Made by a program: the position numbers and the translations under genes. A DNA stretch of 25,127 bases from a virus, in the IMG/VR virus record IMGVR_UViG_3300031972_001195, positions 1 through 25,127 of that record; one strand, written 5' to 3'. Position 1 is the first letter of the stretch; each line of letters begins with the position of its first letter. The notes under the pieces were generated by a model, which had not been told where the DNA came from, ran no database searches, and saw nothing but the letters and a program-made list of their open reading frames with translations. This document shows, one piece after another, positions 1 to 25,127 of the stretch.

Positions 1-1950
1 GGACACTTTAAGCAAACTTTCTCCTATTGCCAAAATGTTTCCTGCATCCATCCCTGCAAAGGTCGCAACCAGTTTTGACATTCCCAAAGCAGCGACGTAA
101 GCGCCTGCACCGACCATAAGCATAGCGACGCCAAATGCCAAGAACCCGGCAATTGCGGGCGCACCTGCGGTCGCCATTATATAGCCTAGGCCAGCAATTG
201 TAAGACCAAGCAGCACAATTGCAGCAACAGCACCGACGATCTGTGCACCATTTAAACCATTGAACGCCGCAACTAATGTCGACATCCCCCAAGCAGCCAA
301 ACCAATGCCTGCACCGACCATAAGTATTGCTCCTCCGAGTGCCAGGATCCCGCCAGCGCTTTTAGTCGCAGCTTTGCCTACAGAGTTTACGCCGGCGGCC
401 ATTTTCACGCCCGATTCTCCGGCGACTGCGGCAGCTGCTTTCATTTTAATGCCGAAGAAGAAGCCGGCAATGCCTGCTTTTGCAAAGGCTGCTACAATGC
501 CGGCGCCCACAACGGCAATTGCCAGTCCGGTCGCTCCCCACCCTTCTGTAAGATCAACAAGCAAATCAATCATCTTATTTATGCCTTCCACAATAGGTCC
601 AACTAAAATTGCCAAGTTGCCCATAAGAACCTTAAACTTATCCATTGCGGTTGAAGCATCTCTTGTCCTATCAGCTAATTCTTCTTGAGTCATCCCGGCA
701 TACATTAGTTGTGCGGCTGTTTCGTGCACTTCTTCACGAGTTGCTCCAAATAGTTGTGCTGCTTCTTCTAAAGAAATACCAAGAGCAGCTGAAACTTCTA
801 ATTTCTGGAATCGATCCATTTCGTCAAAAGTCATTGAAGACTGTTCCATTGCTCTTTGTAATAGTTCTATTCTTTCTTCTTCTGTGGCATTCAAAAGAGA
901 ATACGTATCAAGCAAGTTACCGCCTAAGACCATGTTTAGGCGTCCGGCTGCTTGTGATGAAGCCTCAAAGGTATCGTATTGGCCCACAATGTTATAAAGG
1001 CTCTGAACGGACATTCCGGTTGCTTTTGCAGCTGCTTGTAGTTCCAAGAAGACGTCAAGTGCGCTATCACCCATCTTTGCAAACAACTCGCCCATTCCGA
1101 CAAGGTCAGCCGACACTTGACTAAAAGGTATACCAAGAGCATCTGCTGCGCCGGCGACTTCTCTCATTGCCGTTTCTGTTTCAGCTAATGACATTCCTGC
1201 GACTTTTGTAAATGTCTGTGCCATACCTGCGGCGTCGCCACCAAGTTTCTCTATTTGCGCAGATAACTCTATAAAGCCTTGCTGTGAGCCTTCGGATAGT
1301 TCGGTGAATTCACTAAAGTTTGAGTAAAGGTCTCCCATTACCCCAACGGCTTCGGCTCCACTGATGCCCATAAGGCCCAAGGAATCTCTAGTCTTAAATG
1401 CTGCTGTTGCAAAGTCACGAGAAGCCCCTGTGCTCTGAACGAAAGAAGCACCGGCGCTATCAAGGGCAGAAACTGCGGCGAGAGTTCCCTTTCCTAGTCT
1501 GCTGAACCCTGTGAGAGTGCTGTCTAGCCCAACATCTAATGCATTACTTTGCTTTGAAGCTTCTTCCATCCCAGCCGCAAAAGCATTAAAAGCTTCCGTG
1601 AGGCCGCCAGCAGATTTGACAGCGTTGAGAAGTTTGCTGTCTAAACCAAAAATTGAATCGCCAAAGCTTTTGCCAAGGGCTGTTGCGGCTTCAAGAGTTT
1701 TATTTAGTTCTTCTTGGGCGCTCTTTATCGCTTCAAGCTTTGCAATAAAATTAGTTGCTGTTTTAATTCTTTCTAGATCAGAGTTATTAATAGCCTCTTG
1801 TAGCTCAAGTCTAGACTGCAAGAGGATCTTCTCTCCCCCATCTGCTTTTTGCAGCTGCTCCTTAAGATCAGCCAGCTTTTTAAGAGATACAGCTCTTTTC
1901 TCATTAAGCTCAATCGCTTCTCTGGTTAAATTGTTGTTCTCCTCAGTCAT
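1..1950 (-). CDS. Tail tape-measure-like protein, C-terminus beyond the window
   Basis: This frame is open for 650 codons from an ATG at 1950 to the left edge with no stop, so the gene is cut by the window. The start is supported by AAGG nine bases upstream and by its position just after the stop of the 112-aa gene. Residues 1-90 are charged and helical, as in a coiled coil. The middle is Ala/Gly/Ser/Met-rich helix (for example residues 200-440). From about residue 470 there are hydrophobic Gly/Ala segments typical of the membrane-active part of tape-measure proteins. A 68-residue unit is repeated: LMVGAG begins at about residues 543 and 611, each followed by an AA-GMS-LVA-F pattern. Its place after tube and chaperone-like genes fits a tape measure, which sets tail length and is threaded through the tube. 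The family call rests on context and composition, not on a specific motif. Confidence 0.75.
   Translation of the reverse strand, partial: MTEENNNLTREAIELNEKRAVSLKKLADLKEQLQKADGGEKILLQSRLELQEAINNSDLERIKTATNFIAKLEAIKSAQEELNKTLEAATALGKSFGDSIFGLDSKLLNAVKSAGGLTEAFNAFAAGMEEASKQSNALDVGLDSTLTGFSRLGKGTLAAVSALDSAGASFVQSTGASRDFATAAFKTRDSLGLMGISGAEAVGVMGDLYSNFSEFTELSEGSQQGFIELSAQIEKLGGDAAGMAQTFTKVAGMSLAETETAMREVAGAADALGIPFSQVSADLVGMGELFAKMGDSALDVFLELQAAAKATGMSVQSLYNIVGQYDTFEASSQAAGRLNMVLGGNLLDTYSLLNATEEERIELLQRAMEQSSMTFDEMDRFQKLEVSAALGISLEEAAQLFGATREEVHETAAQLMYAGMTQEELADRTRDASTAMDKFKVLMGNLAILVGPIVEGINKMIDLLVDLTEGWGATGLAIAVVGAGIVAAFAKAGIAGFFFGIKMKAAAAVAGESGVKMAAGVNSVGKAATKSAGGILALGGAILMVGAGIGLAAWGMSTLVAAFNGLNGAQIVGAVAAIVLLGLTIAGLGYIMATAGAPAIAGFLAFGVAMLMVGAGAYVAALGMSKLVATFAGMDAGNILAIGESLLKVS
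103..324 (-). repeat. Internal 68-codon repeat in the tape-measure-like gene
   Basis: An 18-base stretch (gcctgcaccgaccataag on the plus strand) occurs at 103-120 and again at 307-324, exactly 204 bases (68 codons) apart and in frame. The two protein units share a hydrophobic LMVGAG block followed by AA-GMS-LVA-F. This looks like an in-frame duplication of a hydrophobic helical segment. Further copies may lie beyond the left edge. Confidence 0.7.
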
Positions 1951-1961
1951 TCATAAATACC

Positions 1962-2300
1962 TTATTGGATCGGCCACTTCATCCCGGTTTCACGCTCAAA
2001 GTTTCTTATTGCTGTGTTTAATCTTGACTTAGAGGAAAAAGTCTTTGGGTTATTTAGGCCGTGTTTTTCAACAGCTTTCATGTATTGCTTCTCCCCTATG
2101 GCGGCATTGCGGAAAGAAGAAACTTGTGATGAGGTGCCTCTTATCTTACCAACCTGTGGAAATAACCTAAAGTAATCATCAAAACCCAAGAACTGCATTA
2201 GAGCCCTTTTAAGTTTCTCTCTTTGTCTTACGATTGGACCTTCATCTATTTTCGAAAAATCTAATATTAGCTCTTCGCTTGTTTCTTCTTGTTCAGACAT
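1962..2300 (-). CDS. Unknown 112-aa protein between tail chaperone and tape measure
   Basis: I do not recognise this protein. It has an acidic N-terminus (MSEQEETSEELILDFSKIDE), a central basic helix followed by a FLGFDDYFRLFP segment, and a basic C-terminal half ending in KWPIQ. No signal peptide, membrane segment or cysteine motif is visible. The start at 2300 is convincing because AGGAGG lies six bases upstream, one of the strongest ribosome binding sites in the window. The gene is the first after a terminator (2332-2360) and an ACTATTTA element (2320-2327), so it heads a unit with the tape-measure gene that starts 11 bases after its stop. The position suggests a role in tail assembly, possibly with the tape measure, but this is inferred from context only. 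Confidence 0.75.
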   Translation of the reverse strand: MSEQEETSEELILDFSKIDEGPIVRQREKLKRALMQFLGFDDYFRLFPQVGKIRGTSSQVSSFRNAAIGEKQYMKAVEKHGLNNPKTFSSKSRLNTAIRNFERETGMKWPIQ

Positions 2301-2361: not shown

Positions 2362-2622
2362 TTATTTGTTGCTTTTTCTAGCTTTCTCCGTTGCTTCTTT
2401 TTCGTCTTCCTTTTGTTTAATCAATCTTTGAATAAACCATTTTCTAAGGCCGACTGGAATTGAATAAGATTCGAACAAAGAAAAGCCGCCATGGTATTTT
2501 AGGGCAAACAACTCTTCGTAGATTGCTTCTTGGTAACTAGATGTCAGGCCAAAGGAAGCGAAAGTTGATTGGTAGATCCATTTCAACCTCCGTATCGCAG
2601 GAAGGACAAGTAAAGTCGCCCT
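2362..2622 (-). CDS. Small tail-assembly-chaperone-like frame with no ATG (possible frameshift product)
   Basis: This frame is open from just after a TGA (2623-2625) to the TAA at 2362-2364 and contains no ATG. The only near-plausible initiator is TTG at 2586, but GGAGG abuts it with no spacer, which makes normal initiation unlikely. The translated part has a YEELFALKYHGGFSLFESY segment, then IPVGLRKWFIQRLIKQ and a charged tail, about 74 residues counted from the TTG. The YHGGFS...P...R.WF pattern is one I associate with small proteins next to gp26 in T4-like phages and with the second frame of tail assembly chaperones. It overlaps the end of the gp26-like gene in the +1 (equivalently -2) frame. 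It may be expressed only as a fusion through frameshifting, or from an unusual start. Coordinates give the whole open frame. Confidence 0.6.
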   Translation of the reverse strand, partial: RATLLVLPAIRRLKWIYQSTFASFGLTSSYQEAIYEELFALKYHGGFSLFESYSIPVGLRKWFIQRLIKQKEDEKEATEKARKSNK

Positions 2623-3385
2623 TCATCTCAACCCCTGGCTGAATGTCTTTCATTACCTGTTTGAGCTTTTTGGCGTCCCGAAGAGGCATGTTTTCTACAT
2701 AAGATCCAACTAAGTCCGGATTGTCATTTACAGAAACAATAACGAGCCTGTAAGTTTCTAGGCCGGCTGAAAAGTCAACGTTATGCTTTTTATATTTCTT
2801 TTCCTTGTCGGCTAAGGCTTTTTCGTCCTTGCCTGTTAGAAAGCGTATCTCAACTTTGGCTTTTGTCTTTGGTGCTGTAAAGGTAAATGTTCCTTTCCCT
2901 GTTGCCTCAATACCTTCGGATAAAGTTAGAGGCTTGTTGCGAACACATTCCTCCAAGTCAAAAGTTACTTCGGTTTTTTTCATACAAGAGCGGCAAACTG
3001 CCTCAACTGGGTATTCATCACCATAAGCAGATCTTCGTACTTGGGTCAAGATCGCATTCTTGTCTCCAATCAAAAGGTCGTCTAAGTCAAAGTCTTTTGT
3101 TACCATCAAAGAGCGTAAAAGCTTTTCAACAACAACGCCTTGCTTTAGGTATGATTGGTTTAGAAGAATGTCTTCCTCCTTAGCGGTCATTTGTCTTACT
3201 TCTATTGTTGGGTTCTTTCGAAGAGGATGACCCTCTGGATAGAACTCACCATTTGATGGAAGCTCAACAATGTCATTTGCGGCCACAAAAGAAAAATCAG
3301 CACCCTGCTGGGCCATTGCAGGTGCTGGTTCCGGGGATGTCTGGGGGACTTCGGGAGCCCCCAAACGGTCTTGGTTATTTCTCAT
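2537..3385 (-). CDS. T4 gp26-family baseplate hub/tail assembly protein
   Basis: This 282-aa protein has the signature of the T4 base plate family (T4 gp26-like). After a Pro/Ala-rich leader (residues 1-35) comes VELPSNGEFYPEG (40-52), then an EVRQMTAKEEDIL block (62-74) and a helical LLRSLMV region. Two CxxC pairs (C131/C134 and a CPSC near residue 260) suggest a small zinc ribbon inserted in or appended to the domain. The start at 3385 has AGGAG four bases upstream. It follows the tube gene by 27 bases and precedes the tape measure region, the usual position of tail assembly chaperones in contractile- and long-tailed phages. The 3' end overlaps a second open frame (2362-2622). The role in hub or tail assembly is from family knowledge; the exact function is not visible. 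Confidence 0.75.
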   Translation of the reverse strand: MRNNQDRLGAPEVPQTSPEPAPAMAQQGADFSFVAANDIVELPSNGEFYPEGHPLRKNPTIEVRQMTAKEEDILLNQSYLKQGVVVEKLLRSLMVTKDFDLDDLLIGDKNAILTQVRRSAYGDEYPVEAVCRSCMKKTEVTFDLEECVRNKPLTLSEGIEATGKGTFTFTAPKTKAKVEIRFLTGKDEKALADKEKKYKKHNVDFSAGLETYRLVIVSVNDNPDLVGSYVENMPLRDAKKLKQVMKDIQPGVEMKGDFTCPSCDTEVEMDLPINFRFLWPDI

Positions 3386-3412: not shown

Positions 3413-3961
3413 TTATGAGCCGCCGAAGCCAGTAATTGGGTCGGCGCCGTCAAGGAAGTTGAAAAAGTCGTAACGAAGTTCAACTTTAATTTCACTTAAA
3501 TCTTCATTATCGTAAGACAAAGACTGAGGGAATTCAATGTTTTTCACCCAAGCATTTTGAAGGGTAAACCCTATTTTATTTTTTTCACCATCCTCACCAG
3601 ACCCTAGCTGCTCAATCGTTACTTCTCCTAATGCCCCAACGGACCCTCTTTTGGTTAGTAATGATGTAGCGGCGGGCGTTTGGCCATCGGGAACCTTATA
3701 TCCTGAACTAACAAAGCTTTTAATAATTGTCTGTGAAGTCGATTCATTGATGGCGTCGACCACAGTAAAGGAAATAGTGTTGTATTCTATAGTTCCAGGA
3801 AAATAAAACCTGTGATTTAAGAAATGATGTGTTGCTTCGCCAACTGTTATCGTTGGAAGGTTAACTCCTTTCACTACCCAAGTATCTAGATTATTTACAC
3901 GAAGTAAAAACTTAAAATTACGACGGGGTTCGGTCTCTGTGCTGCTGCTCCAAAATGCCAT
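3413..3961 (-). CDS. 19: Tail tube protein, T4 gp19-like
   Basis: At 182 aa this is close to the usual length of T4-type tube subunits (T4 gp19 is 163 aa). The N-terminal FKFLLRVNNLDTWVVKGVNLP (residues 17-37) followed by a beta-rich HHFLNHRFYFPGTIEYN segment is characteristic of the gp19 family. The C-terminus has the typical ELRYDFFNF strand. It forms stacked hexameric rings inside the sheath through which DNA passes. The gene follows the sheath gene, the same sheath-then-tube order as T4 18-19, and starts with AAGGAG seven to eight bases upstream. Confidence 0.9.
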   Translation of the reverse strand: MAFWSSSTETEPRRNFKFLLRVNNLDTWVVKGVNLPTITVGEATHHFLNHRFYFPGTIEYNTISFTVVDAINESTSQTIIKSFVSSGYKVPDGQTPAATSLLTKRGSVGALGEVTIEQLGSGEDGEKNKIGFTLQNAWVKNIEFPQSLSYDNEDLSEIKVELRYDFFNFLDGADPITGFGGS

Positions 3962-14374: not shown

Positions 14375-14749
14375 TTATCCTACCCCAGCAGAGCCAGTCC
14401 AATTGTTCCAACTGGCTTCTTTTTTAATTGACGTTAAACCAGCAATGACTGATGCTGTTGTATTTCCACCACTAGCAATTAAATACAAATCTCCAACTTT
14501 AAAATCAGCCGCATAACTTGCAGATGTGGCTAAACTTATATAATTTGTTGCTTGCACTCCATTTTCAGAAAATCCAAAACGAAGTTCATTTGCCCCTTCA
14601 TTTCTAACAGATATGAACTTTGTTATATTAATAAAAGAAACATTCACAGGAGTTGATGTTCCAATCGCCAACGAGGCAGTTGCAAAGGGAATTGAACTAA
14701 CTTGAAAAGCGGCTGTGTGCCCTAAGCCATTTCTGTAAGTTATACTCAC
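14375..14749 (-). CDS. Tandem paralogue B, small beta-rich virion-type protein (124 aa)
   Basis: This protein is clearly related to the one at 14905-15282. Both begin MS, then a YxxGLG block, then AxQVSxxP, and both end NW-(T/S)-GSAGVG. The body is beta-stranded with FINITKFISVRNEG and LRFGFSENGV segments, suggesting a small beta-sandwich such as a decoration or fibre subunit. The start is GTG at 14749, inside GTGA where it overlaps the stop of a 22-codon frame, and the nearest GGAG is 11 bases away, so initiation may depend on coupling. It ends one base before the 545-aa gene. Function is not recognised. Confidence 0.7.
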   Translation of the reverse strand: MSITYRNGLGHTAAFQVSSIPFATASLAIGTSTPVNVSFINITKFISVRNEGANELRFGFSENGVQATNYISLATSASYAADFKVGDLYLIASGGNTTASVIAGLTSIKKEASWNNWTGSAGVG

Positions 14750-14904: not shown

Positions 14905-15282
14905 TTACCCTACGCCGGCAGAGCCTGACCAATTGCTGGATAGTTCGTCTGCGGCGATTGTTGTTACGCCGGCACGAATCTCAAAACTCCTACTACCGCC
15001 GGAGCCTGTTTTCTGGAGATAAAGAGAGGCGACTCTCCAATAATAGATGTCACTTACACCTTCGGGGGTTACAAAATAATTTTCGTTTGCTGTTACCCCT
15101 AGGGATGAAAACCCGATCCTTAGAGGTCCGGAAGCCGAAACCTGAATAAAATTAGTTACATTTGTAAAATTAGCCTCGTATACATTTGCACCGGTGGTGC
15201 TACCTCTAATAACATAAGGCACTGCGCTTACTTGGTATGCTGAAGAATTGCCCAAGCCTGTTTTATAATTAAATACGCTCAT
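14905..15282 (-). CDS. Tandem paralogue A, small beta-rich virion-type protein (125 aa)
   Basis: This is the paralogue of the 14375-14749 protein, with the same start (MSVFNYKTGLG), AYQVSAVPYV block, NFTNVTNFIQV strand, LRIGFSSLGV strand and NWSGSAGVG ending. The ATG at 15282 has AGGAG seven bases upstream, so unlike paralogue B it has a conventional start. It follows the bS21-like gene by 16 bases. No enzymatic motif is present. Two copies beside a fibre-like protein suggest a virion-surface component, perhaps diverging after duplication. Function is not recognised. Confidence 0.7.
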   Translation of the reverse strand: MSVFNYKTGLGNSSAYQVSAVPYVIRGSTTGANVYEANFTNVTNFIQVSASGPLRIGFSSLGVTANENYFVTPEGVSDIYYWRVASLYLQKTGSGGSRSFEIRAGVTTIAADELSSNWSGSAGVG

Positions 15283-22935: not shown

Positions 22936-23314
22936 CTGGTCTCCATCCTTCTTTCCACCTTTCTTCTCTTCCTTCAATCCACTGAATGTAACATTTGAAA
23001 CAAGAATCCCATTTGGTTTTACAAGTTTCGTCTCTCAGGGTCTTGATCTGCGAAGAACAAGTGGGACATTTAGTTTTGCTTTCTTTACTAAGTAGTCTCT
23101 TTGTAATAAAAAATCCTTTTTGTTCTTCTAGTGTCTCGGAGTCATTAGATTGGATTTTTTGAGCCAACTCTTTTCGCTGCTCTTTATAATCTTTTTCTTT
23201 TTCCTCGTCCCATCCGCTTTGAGGTGTCTTGATTGTCTCTTCACCCCATCGCTCTTTGATTGCTTTTTCTAGTTTTGCTATTTCGTTTAGTTTTTTTTCA
23301 TCAAGTGGGAGCAT
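22907..23314 (-). CDS. Cys-rich zinc-ribbon-like protein (135 aa)
   Basis: The best start is the ATG at 23314, preceded by AAAGGT seven bases away. The frame can be extended to a TTG at 23335, but that codon lacks a ribosome binding site. The first 75 residues are a charged helix rich in Lys and Glu. The C-terminal part has CPTC, then 18 residues later CFKC, consistent with a CxxC...CxxC zinc ribbon, followed by a WIEGREERWKEGWRP tail. It overlaps the Nudix gene by 14 bases. Similar CxxC proteins occur near head genes in T4-like phages, with no assigned function. Binding of zinc and perhaps nucleic acid is inferred. Confidence 0.65.
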   Translation of the reverse strand: MLPLDEKKLNEIAKLEKAIKERWGEETIKTPQSGWDEEKEKDYKEQRKELAQKIQSNDSETLEEQKGFFITKRLLSKESKTKCPTCSSQIKTLRDETCKTKWDSCFKCYIQWIEGREERWKEGWRPDENHKRKTS

Positions 23315-23735
23315 TGTATACCTTTTGTTTAGCAATAAATACGATTTCTTTTAAGTTTGGAGTTGTTTCCATACTATCTAGATCTTTTATAGAACACCAT
23401 TTATAATCTGTGTGCTCTTTTCCGTCTAAGTGGATCTTACCTGAAAACTTGTTTGTTGTAAAGAAATAAACTCTATTCTTTTTTATAACGTTAGTATCAA
23501 TAAGGTTTTTTGGATCTATTATCAGATTTGATTCTTCTTTTACTTCTCGGCAAGTTCCATCTTTTATGTCTTCGTCAACGTGAATGTGGCCGCCAACTGA
23601 GCACCACGCTCCCGGCATCCAAGGATCGTTGGGGCCTCTTTTCAGCGAAAGGAAATGATCTTTGTCCTTGAAGATAATAACGTGACCTGAGAACTTAGAG
23701 TCTTTTTTCATTTTATTTATTTTGATCTTGATCAT
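23301..23735 (-). CDS. Nudix hydrolase
   Basis: The Nudix box runs from G49 to L71: G-x5-E55-x7-R63-E64-V-K-E67-E68-S-N70-L. All metal-binding and catalytic acidic positions are present. The glycine of the usual E-E-x-G is replaced by Asn70. The preceding DPWMPGAWCSVGGH is typical of the beta strand that leads into the box. The 144-aa length is usual for a single-domain enzyme, which hydrolyses a nucleoside diphosphate linked to another group (for example oxidised dNTP, ADP-ribose or capped RNA). The substrate cannot be read from this sequence. The ATG forms an ATGA overlap with the stop of the nucleotidyltransferase gene, so the two enzymes are made in tandem. Confidence 0.88.
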   Translation of the reverse strand: MIKIKINKMKKDSKFSGHVIIFKDKDHFLSLKRGPNDPWMPGAWCSVGGHIHVDEDIKDGTCREVKEESNLIIDPKNLIDTNVIKKNRVYFFTTNKFSGKIHLDGKEHTDYKWCSIKDLDSMETTPNLKEIVFIAKQKVYNAPT

Positions 23736-24565
23736 TGGGACAAGGACATCATTAGGTCATAGGAGTCAGATCTATACTGAGCCAATTGATCAATGTATCC
23801 TTGCTTGCGAAGAATCTTGAAAGCAATGTTTTCTGGTGAGTAAGCGCCCTCTCGTTGAAGGCCGGCTTTTCTCATTCTTTTGAGTTTTGCGAAGATGCGT
23901 ACGGCTTGTCGTTTTGCCTCAACAAACTTTTCTTGGCTCATCAACTCTCGGACCAAGCCTATTTGATGCATAATCAAGTGCGCTTTCTTCATCGCAGAAT
24001 CATAATCAAAGTCTCGGTCTTCTTTTCTTGGGCTCTTGATCCACTGATCTTTGGTTATTGAGTATACAGGGCGGTCTTCATCGTCGTATGCTTCGTCGAC
24101 GTCCTCAATGTAGATCTCAACTTCGTGGCCAAAGATGGTTATGTTATGTTGCTCATTCCACACCAATCTACGAGAATTAAAAAGATCACGAACCAAGTCA
24201 ATGTCTTGATTAACTTTGGAAAAATCGACCACAATGTGTAAGTCAACATCAGAATCAGGATGATAGTTGTACCCGGCCAGTGAACCAGTGAAGTAAATGT
24301 CTTCCACAGCGTCTGGGTCAATGTTGTGATCTCGAAGGAATGCATTTGCTATTCTTTTTAGTTTAAGTTTGACTTCTAGTTTTAGGTGGCCGTCTTCATT
24401 CCAGACCTTGGATGATAAGCCGTCGTGTTGTTTGAAGGTTTCTTTGGACAAGACTGCCTTTCTTATCTCTTCTTTTTTTAGAGAGCGTTTATTTTTCTGT
24501 TCTTGCTGCAAAGCGCTTCTTTCTTTTGCTGCAGACTCAAATATTTTCCAAAACTGATTATACAT
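23732..24565 (-). CDS. Nucleotidyltransferase-fold protein
   Basis: Residues 93-112 contain the DNA polymerase beta-type nucleotidyltransferase signature: GS (94-95), then DVDLHIV with two metal-binding aspartates (D106 and D108). EVEIYIED (148-155) supplies a likely third carboxylate. A charged helical N-terminus of about 70 residues precedes the domain, and the C-terminal third is helical (LIMHQIGLVRELMSQEKFVE and following). Enzymes of this fold add a nucleotide to a protein, RNA or small molecule. The target here is not visible. Its TGA overlaps the Nudix start, and the upstream repeat protein ends one base before its ATG at 24565. The ribosome binding site is weak (AGAG), again suggesting coupling. 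Confidence 0.82.
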   Translation of the reverse strand: MYNQFWKIFESAAKERSALQQEQKNKRSLKKEEIRKAVLSKETFKQHDGLSSKVWNEDGHLKLEVKLKLKRIANAFLRDHNIDPDAVEDIYFTGSLAGYNYHPDSDVDLHIVVDFSKVNQDIDLVRDLFNSRRLVWNEQHNITIFGHEVEIYIEDVDEAYDDEDRPVYSITKDQWIKSPRKEDRDFDYDSAMKKAHLIMHQIGLVRELMSQEKFVEAKRQAVRIFAKLKRMRKAGLQREGAYSPENIAFKILRKQGYIDQLAQYRSDSYDLMMSLSQ

Positions 24566-24566
24566 T

Positions 24567-25127
24567 TTATTTCTCTTTGCTTAAAAAGGATCGCAAGACT
24601 TTTTTTCCGTTTAGATACCACACTTTTTCTCCGTTGGCCCTTTCAACAGCAGGGCCATCTTCACGGTGCAACTTTCCGTTTAGATACCATTCTTTGCTTC
24701 CGCCGACCCATTCACGAGCAGGGCCATCTTCACGGTGCAACTTTCCGTTTAGCCACCATTCTTTGTGTCCGCTGGTAGACTCAACAGCAGGGCCATCTTC
24801 ACGGTGGCGCTTTCCGTTTAAATGCCATTCTTTGCCATCTGGGCCTTGGCTAAACTCACGTCCGTCGCCAAGCTTCTTGTAAACGTATTTTGATATCTCT
24901 TTTTGGATTTCTTGACCAAACGCTTCTTTTGCAGGTTTGATCAAGGAGATTAGTTTGGCCTTTTTGCCATCATTAATAACCATGTCTCTTTCGTCCATAA
25001 ACTGGTCAGTTCCAAAGTGGATTTGATATTTTTCATCTTTATGATCTGGGTGTTTAGGGATGAAAATGATCAGCGGATCTTCGTCAGTGTGGTATTCTTC
25101 GTAGTAATCTAAGCCCGGCGCTGCGGT
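24567..25127 (-). CDS. YwqK/MORN-like repeat protein, N-terminus beyond the window
   Basis: The frame is open without a stop from the TAA at 24567 to the right edge, giving at least 186 codons, so the Met at 24998 is internal. The visible N-terminal part contains DPLIIFIPKHPDH, EKYQIHFGT and QFMDERD, a pattern I recall from phage proteins in which a WCTA-type domain precedes it. After a helical linker come three full 23-residue repeats of the form EWxLNGKxHREDGPA and a partial fourth (VWYLNGKKV). Such repeats resemble the YwqK antitoxin-type or MORN-like beta-hairpin repeats, which often act as binding surfaces. No enzymatic residues are visible in the window. It ends one base before the nucleotidyltransferase start. 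Confidence 0.75.
   Translation of the reverse strand, partial: TAAPGLDYYEEYHTDEDPLIIFIPKHPDHKDEKYQIHFGTDQFMDERDMVINDGKKAKLISLIKPAKEAFGQEIQKEISKYVYKKLGDGREFSQGPDGKEWHLNGKRHREDGPAVESTSGHKEWWLNGKLHREDGPAREWVGGSKEWYLNGKLHREDGPAVERANGEKVWYLNGKKVLRSFLSKEK
24604..24865 (-). repeat. Tandem 69-bp coding repeats
   Basis: Units repeat with an exact 69-base period. The block beginning agcagggccatcttcacggt (plus strand) starts at 24648, 24717 and 24786, and tttccgttta starts at 24604, 24673, 24742 and 24811. Each unit encodes one 23-residue repeat. DNA identity between the units is high in the conserved half, which suggests recent duplication or ongoing copy-number change. Confidence 0.92.

Follow-up and report, generated by a model that had tools for sequence, protein, structure and literature searches.

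A probable programmed +1 frameshift joins a gp26-like, putative tail assembly chaperone gene to an ATG-less frame

The window, a 25,127-nt stretch of DNA from a viral genome record (IMGVR_UViG_3300031972_001195), carries on its minus strand a gp26-like gene flanked by a tail tube gene and a tape-measure-like gene. The gp26-like product matched Pfam family PF12322 (3.4e-14, 53.5 bits, above the cut-off of 24.5) and phrog_150 (3.8e-17). Its upstream neighbour matched phrog_4542 (2.7e-13); the downstream gene is assigned from its position and a weak match to phrog_167 (E 0.0025). An earlier note on this sequence had placed the gene between tube and tape measure, as is found here, and had proposed that a programmed shift joins the gp26-like protein to an overlapping ATG-less frame. 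That overlap is real: a second frame, offset +1 (or −2) from the gp26-like frame, is open from 2622 to 2362 and has no ATG. The features of the locus are as follows.

1 to 1950, minus strand: tape-measure-like gene, downstream, running off the window.
1962 to 2300, minus strand: 112-amino-acid ORF separating the chaperone frame from the tape-measure-like gene.
2362 to 2550, minus strand: +1-frame C-terminal domain (TAC-C, gp51-C like), beginning GLTSSYQEAIYEELFALKYHGGFSLFES, 62 amino acids plus stop, no ATG, in a conserved +1 frame.
2362 to 3385, minus strand: proposed frameshift product (TAC-NC), 340 amino acids, with TGGC read as one step.
2537 to 2539, minus strand: TAG, the gp26-like stop codon in the 0 frame.
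2537 to 3385, minus strand: gp26-like gene (T4_baseplate family), the putative short tail assembly chaperone (TAC-N), 282 amino acids, ending FLWPDI-stop.
2549 to 2554, minus strand: putative slip site CTT TGG.
2559 to 2592, minus strand: predicted RNA hairpin CGGAGGUUGA / UCAACUUUCG with inner UGG/CCA, 4 nt separating its 3′ foot from the slip codon.
2587 to 2591, minus strand: GGAGG, a conserved upstream element, inside the stem in the window.
3413 to 3961, minus strand: tail tube gene, upstream of the gp26-like gene.

The 112-amino-acid ORF at 1962–2300 is conserved in relatives, with 70 tblastn rows in their loci, and has no Pfam match. Elsewhere on the minus strand, a NUDIX hydrolase gene (23301–23735, 3.4e-12) and an adjoining nucleotidyltransferase-like gene (23732–24565, 5.3e-05) lie next to structural genes, and a protein at 24567–24998 contains repeated LNGK.HREDGPA-like units with a weak MORN_2 match (0.00022). 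Two neighbouring small proteins (14375–14749 and 14905–15282, minus strand), 44% identical and with no Pfam match, are apparently a tandem duplication.

To compare the junction across relatives, we used three scans, which contributed 80, 80 and 19 loci, and added named phages. The two 80-locus scans, like the scan behind the −1 relatives described below, each took the best 80 of more matches, so the locus sets favour close relatives. Of 187 loci, 185 contained a match to a gp26 profile (L184 and L187, with no gp26 match, were dropped), and removal of L021, which has an open end, and of duplicates left 147 non-redundant junctions. In 141 of these, an in-frame CTT or TTT followed by TGG stands 12–33 nt before the gp26-like stop; in the window this is the CTT TGG at 2554–2549, with CTT beginning 15 nt before the stop codon. 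The six other junctions read TTT TTT AGT, TTC TTT CGT (twice), TTT CTA, TTT TTT TTC and TTC TTT CAT. Each of these has T or C directly after a TTT, so that tRNA-Phe, slipping +1, would re-pair with UUU or UUC; the conserved site would thus re-pair perfectly or near-perfectly in the +1 frame in all 147 junctions. The loci are kin to one another and these counts are not independent events; clustering gave 98 groups at 70% identity, 92 of them with YTT TGG, and 13 groups at 40%, 8 with YTT TGG. The named phages Mel-JY01 (Microcystis), immuto (Flavobacterium) and RM378 (Rhodothermus) share the frame relation. The +1 frame is conserved across the family of relatives, far beyond chance, the pattern that the earlier note had proposed to look for in related phages.

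Codon choice at the site is strongly skewed, in part because dual coding forces it. Among relatives with YTT TGG, the Phe codon before the terminal TGG is TTT in 127 cases and TTC in none; Phe codons before TGG elsewhere in these phages' genes number 89 TTT and 86 TTC (217 TTT and 86 TTC overall, minus 128 terminal TTT). Where the codon encodes Leu, it is CTT in 14 of 14. In 134 of 141 the +1 frame opens with GGC, a codon whose background share among Gly codons is 23%. YTT TGG shows no avoidance elsewhere in these phages' genes, where we counted 133 CTT TGG and 89 TTT TGG. The four bases alone therefore cannot be strongly shifty, and context should matter.

From this comparison we put at about 90% the probability that a programmed +1 frameshift joins the gp26-like protein to the ATG-less frame, making the putative chaperone in two forms; the earlier note had left the direction at +1 or −2. 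The best-surviving alternative, an unlikely one, is a −2 shift as in phage Mu (described in a review, PMC5009743), which lands in the same frame and would add one extra residue. At the majority sequence, TTT TTT TGG, a −2 slip of tRNA-Phe would re-pair perfectly. The minority sequences argue against it: neither TTC CTT TGG (10 of 141, and also the window) nor TTC TTT TGG (3 of 141) could slip −2 without mispairing at the middle base (TCC or TCT), whereas a +1 slip at YTT TGG yields UUU every time and the six exceptions offer TTT then T or C. In 126 of 137 loci the −1 frame is closed by a stop codon at a distance of 8 nt from the slip codon.

The programmed +1 shift also predicts where coding in the second frame should begin, and the substitution pattern locates that onset at the slip site. 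After it, single-base codon differences between close pairs in the +1 frame were 8,506 synonymous and 1,758 non-synonymous, compared with 1,608/8,924 and 1,282/8,516 (synonymous/non-synonymous) in the other two frames. Over the last 57 nt upstream of the slip, the +1 frame had 684 synonymous, 3,470 non-synonymous and 225 stop changes, and the gp26 frame had 2,774 synonymous and 1,358 non-synonymous. The +1 frame is thus under protein selection after the slip site and not before it. In 38 of 141 loci the +1 frame is closed by a stop 8 or 14 nt upstream of the slip codon; in 24 of 141, no upstream +1 stop was found in the stretch examined. Among 138 loci (three truncated ones left out), 59 have no ATG from the upstream stop through codon 24 of the domain, 20 have no ATG, GTG or TTG over that span, and 19 have no ATG in the whole +1 ORF. 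The confined selection, the close upstream stops and the missing start codons suggest that the motif is where ribosomes enter the +1 frame, and that they shift into it and do not start there. The earlier note had offered GGGCGA (2616–2621) as a sequence at which slipping might occur. Those letters are present there, more than 60 nt upstream of the conserved motif and where the +1 frame is not under selection; the likely site is CTTTGG at 2554–2549.

The same data bear on whether the small protein has a start of its own, be it TTG 2586, a non-AUG codon close to the junction or reinitiation past the gp26 stop. GGAGG lies near a candidate start, cyanophage relatives have an ATG 8 nt past the gp26 stop position and one relative (L194) has a separate TAATG gene. 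Independent initiation is nevertheless very unlikely for the window's group, because the +1 frame is selected after the slip site and not before it. The start codons themselves also argue against it: the window's +1 frame has no ATG, TTG 2586 directly abuts the GGAGG at 2587–2591 with no spacer, as the earlier note had observed, 20 of 138 relatives offer no start codon of any of the three kinds up to codon 24 of the domain, and the junction CUG is not conserved, being CTA in many loci. Relatives with a separate ATG gene, which that note said would count against a shift, do exist in some lineages: L194 has such a gene, and in cyanophages an ATG follows closely behind the gp26 stop. The arrangement there is a different one and does not overturn the shift proposed for the window's group. 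Transcriptional slippage on a T run, giving mixed mRNAs, is highly improbable: the majority of relatives have seven Ts, but the window has only TTCCTTTGG, 14 of 141 loci have CTT, and three Ts in a row should be too few for such slippage. A sequencing error or a decayed gene, conceivable for one contig alone, is extremely improbable in view of the same frame relation in 141 of 147 non-redundant loci and three named phages, and of purifying selection on the second frame.

If the context of the slip codon matters, the sequence upstream of it holds two candidate elements. GGAGG occurs within 12 codons upstream of the slip in 124 of 141 loci, compared with 28.1 expected by synonymous resampling, and in 1.6% of other stretches of the gene. 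Most often it stands 20, 26 or 32 nt from the slip codon. It is missing from 16 of 133 distinct regions. A gapless motif search for GGAGG at short range from the slip did not pick it up in the window, because the spacing there is 32 nt. The 36 nt upstream of the slip folded better than synonymous resamples in 122 of 133 sequences (mean z −1.73; controls −0.03 and −0.13) and, when the comparison was with dinucleotide shuffles, folded better in 112 of 133 (mean z −0.96; controls 0.09 and −0.30). When stem arms were swapped between sequences, mean folding was weaker in 300 of 300 permutations at both main spacings (58 and 22 sequences); this permutation and the synonymous resampling ignore kinship among loci. 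Both gave stronger hairpin signals than column-by-column covariation, which was weak, with most pairs barely above independence.

In 78 of 133 sequences, 4 or 5 nt separate the foot of the stem from the slip codon. In the window, 2555–2596 folds at −14.2 kcal/mol (z −4.64), a value reached by 0 of 200 shuffles, with GGAGG inside a 10-bp stem. A downstream pseudoknot or hairpin gave no signal in the window (z 0.38) and a weak one in the family (mean z −0.54). The earlier note had suggested GGAGG as an internal Shine-Dalgarno-type stimulator; its conservation beyond chance bears that proposal out in part, but in the window it sits within the stem of a hairpin just upstream of the slip site, so that it may act by mRNA pairing, by 16S rRNA pairing or by both.

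In the mechanism that we propose, most ribosomes would terminate at the TAG at 2539 and release the short chaperone form. A minority, an efficiency that we infer, would shift at CUU UGG (2554–2549), where the P-site tRNA-Leu would move one base forward, from CUU to UUU. GGC would be read next and translation would go on in the +1 frame, appending the 62-residue helical domain. The hairpin, its foot 4 nt upstream of the slip codon in the window, together with the conserved GGAGG, probably stimulates the shift. The long form would correspond to lambda gpGT and T4 gp51, and the short form to gpG and T4 gp26. The comparison of relatives itself establishes the site, the frame, the onset of +1 coding and the homology of the two domains.

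Protein comparisons are consistent with a chaperone role. PF12322 was matched by 49 of 51 relatives at E up to 0.05. A model of the gp26-like protein (pLDDT 86.9) had as its top structural match, first of 795 chains, the HK97 tail assembly chaperone 2ob9_B, with a middling Z of 5.3 over 75 residues (rmsd 3.2). Foldseek ranked the same chain second (E 0.67) and found no match in the PDB at E up to 0.001; a PDB sequence search with the gp26 profile returned just three chance-level matches. In a viral structure library, the model matched baseplate hub assembly proteins of T4-like phages. Two CxxC pairs, C131/C134 and C260/C263, are nearly invariant in the gp26-like family (2540–3385, minus strand, in the window), which suggests a zinc site. 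The second domain is modelled as all-helical (pLDDT 89.0). Five of 51 second domains matched phrog_634, and 29 of 51 weakly matched DUF6760 (PF20546; alignment A5, best 1.7e-5), so this family of unknown function may also be a chaperone C-domain. A plasmid search with the second-frame protein gave no match.

More distant relatives encode the same pair of domains by another route. In a set of −1 relatives from cyanophages, Aeromonas phages and others (L192–L279, 59 non-redundant of 88), T TTT TTC stands just before the gp26 stop in 58 of 59 junctions. A homologous domain, attached at the FF position used by the +1 domain, is encoded in the −1 frame (profile comparison by hhalign, probability 96, E 4.2e-9). 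GGAGG lies 11 nt upstream of T TTT TTC in 44 of 58, where 4.2 were expected. In the Aeromonas loci the first ATG comes 53 nt past the gp26 stop, and in cyanophages one comes 8 nt past it, so the cyanophage domain may be initiated separately. Among eight named relatives (L188–L195, four of them within L192–L279), T TTT TTY accompanies an open −1 frame in six; in phiXF1 it is the +1 frame that is open, and in Cygsa01 a separate gene starts with its own ATG.

T4 itself carries both domains in one ORF, gp51. This protein matches PF12322 over residues 1–201 (3.9e-52), and the −1 profile found the gp51-C domain at residues 199–249 (E 6.9e-10 in a two-sequence search); the +1 profile alone does not reach T4 gp51. 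The product of the +1 shift would be a gp26 protein extended by a small helical domain, one that shares homology with the C-terminal part of T4 gp51. T4 gp51 is a distant paralogue of gp26 (2e-6), and the slippery end is absent from T4 gene 26. A further reading, tentative and on balance doubtful, is that the window's group represents a distinct class of +1 signal, in which a slip at the sense-codon site YUU UGG C is driven by GGAGG and a hairpin refolding behind the ribosome. The gene position would have switched between −1, with GGAGG 11 nt before T TTT TTC, and +1 when two added codons moved GGAGG away from the slip and allowed the hairpin.

Vladimirov, Gautam and Davidson (2022, Virology 566:9) reportedly name T4 genes 26 and 51 in their abstract. 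A 2016 review describes G-T frameshifting as conserved in long-tailed phages 'except T4', notes −1, −2 and +1 versions of the shift, and regards +1 as very likely in the haloarchaeal myovirus HSTV-2 (PMC5009743). One later text describes a short gene and a fused longer gene in some T4-like phages (PMC10885494), and another mentions poly-T −1 signals in T4-like phages (PMC12846349); both credit the T4-like chaperone genes to Vladimirov 2022. T4-like tail assembly chaperones have been in print since 2022, and the T4-lineage parallel drawn in the earlier note is not new. In the literature searched, open-access only, we found no report of a +1 site in the T4-like chaperone group; the +1 site, the direction switch and the upstream hairpin may be new.

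One homologous protein pair appears to have three solutions: a −1 shift, a +1 shift and gene duplication. In marine T4-related phages, the +1 shift would give two versions of a helper protein from one gene, a product missed by standard annotation. In Flavobacterium phage immuto (L082, 3020–3270), most of the +1 domain is unannotated, with just the tail marked, under a hypothetical gene of its own; the shift would account for such a missed gene. Present in 141 of 147 loci, including named phages, the +1 site would supply a clearly delimited signal for +1 shifting in bacteria, one that sits on a sense codon and has a hairpin upstream.

The chaperone genes of lambda, P2 and Mu likewise lie between tube and tape measure. 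Lambda G/GT, P2 E/E+E′ and the Mu chaperones use a frameshift close to the gene's 3′ end to make a short and an extended form, as is proposed for the window's gene; they belong to other protein families, and lambda and P2 shift −1 and Mu −2, whereas the shift here would be +1. The +1 site of Escherichia coli prfB (RF2), CUU UGA, shares the P-site change from CUU to UUU and an upstream Shine-Dalgarno-like element. The two differ in the spacing of that element, GGAGG lying 20–35 nt upstream here, in the A-site codon, here the sense codon UGG, and in a hairpin that lies between GGAGG and the slip or contains GGAGG. Cyanophage and Aeromonas phage gp26 with its gp51-like −1 frame has homologous domains at the same FF position and an upstream GGAGG, as here; those phages use the −1 heptamer T TTT TTC and have no +1 site, and the cyanophages add the ATG past the stop. 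T4 gp26 (short) and gp51 (long) share with the window's gene the PF12322 domain, the homologous C-terminal domain and the division into short and long forms, but in T4 the two are separate paralogues and here they would come from one gene and a +1 shift. The T4 gene 26–25 junction has a Shine-Dalgarno sequence split by a hairpin, which forms where gene 26 ends (3′) and draws the distant Shine-Dalgarno closer (PMC3014915); that hairpin serves initiation of gene 25 at an AUG, whereas here no start codon follows the hairpin.
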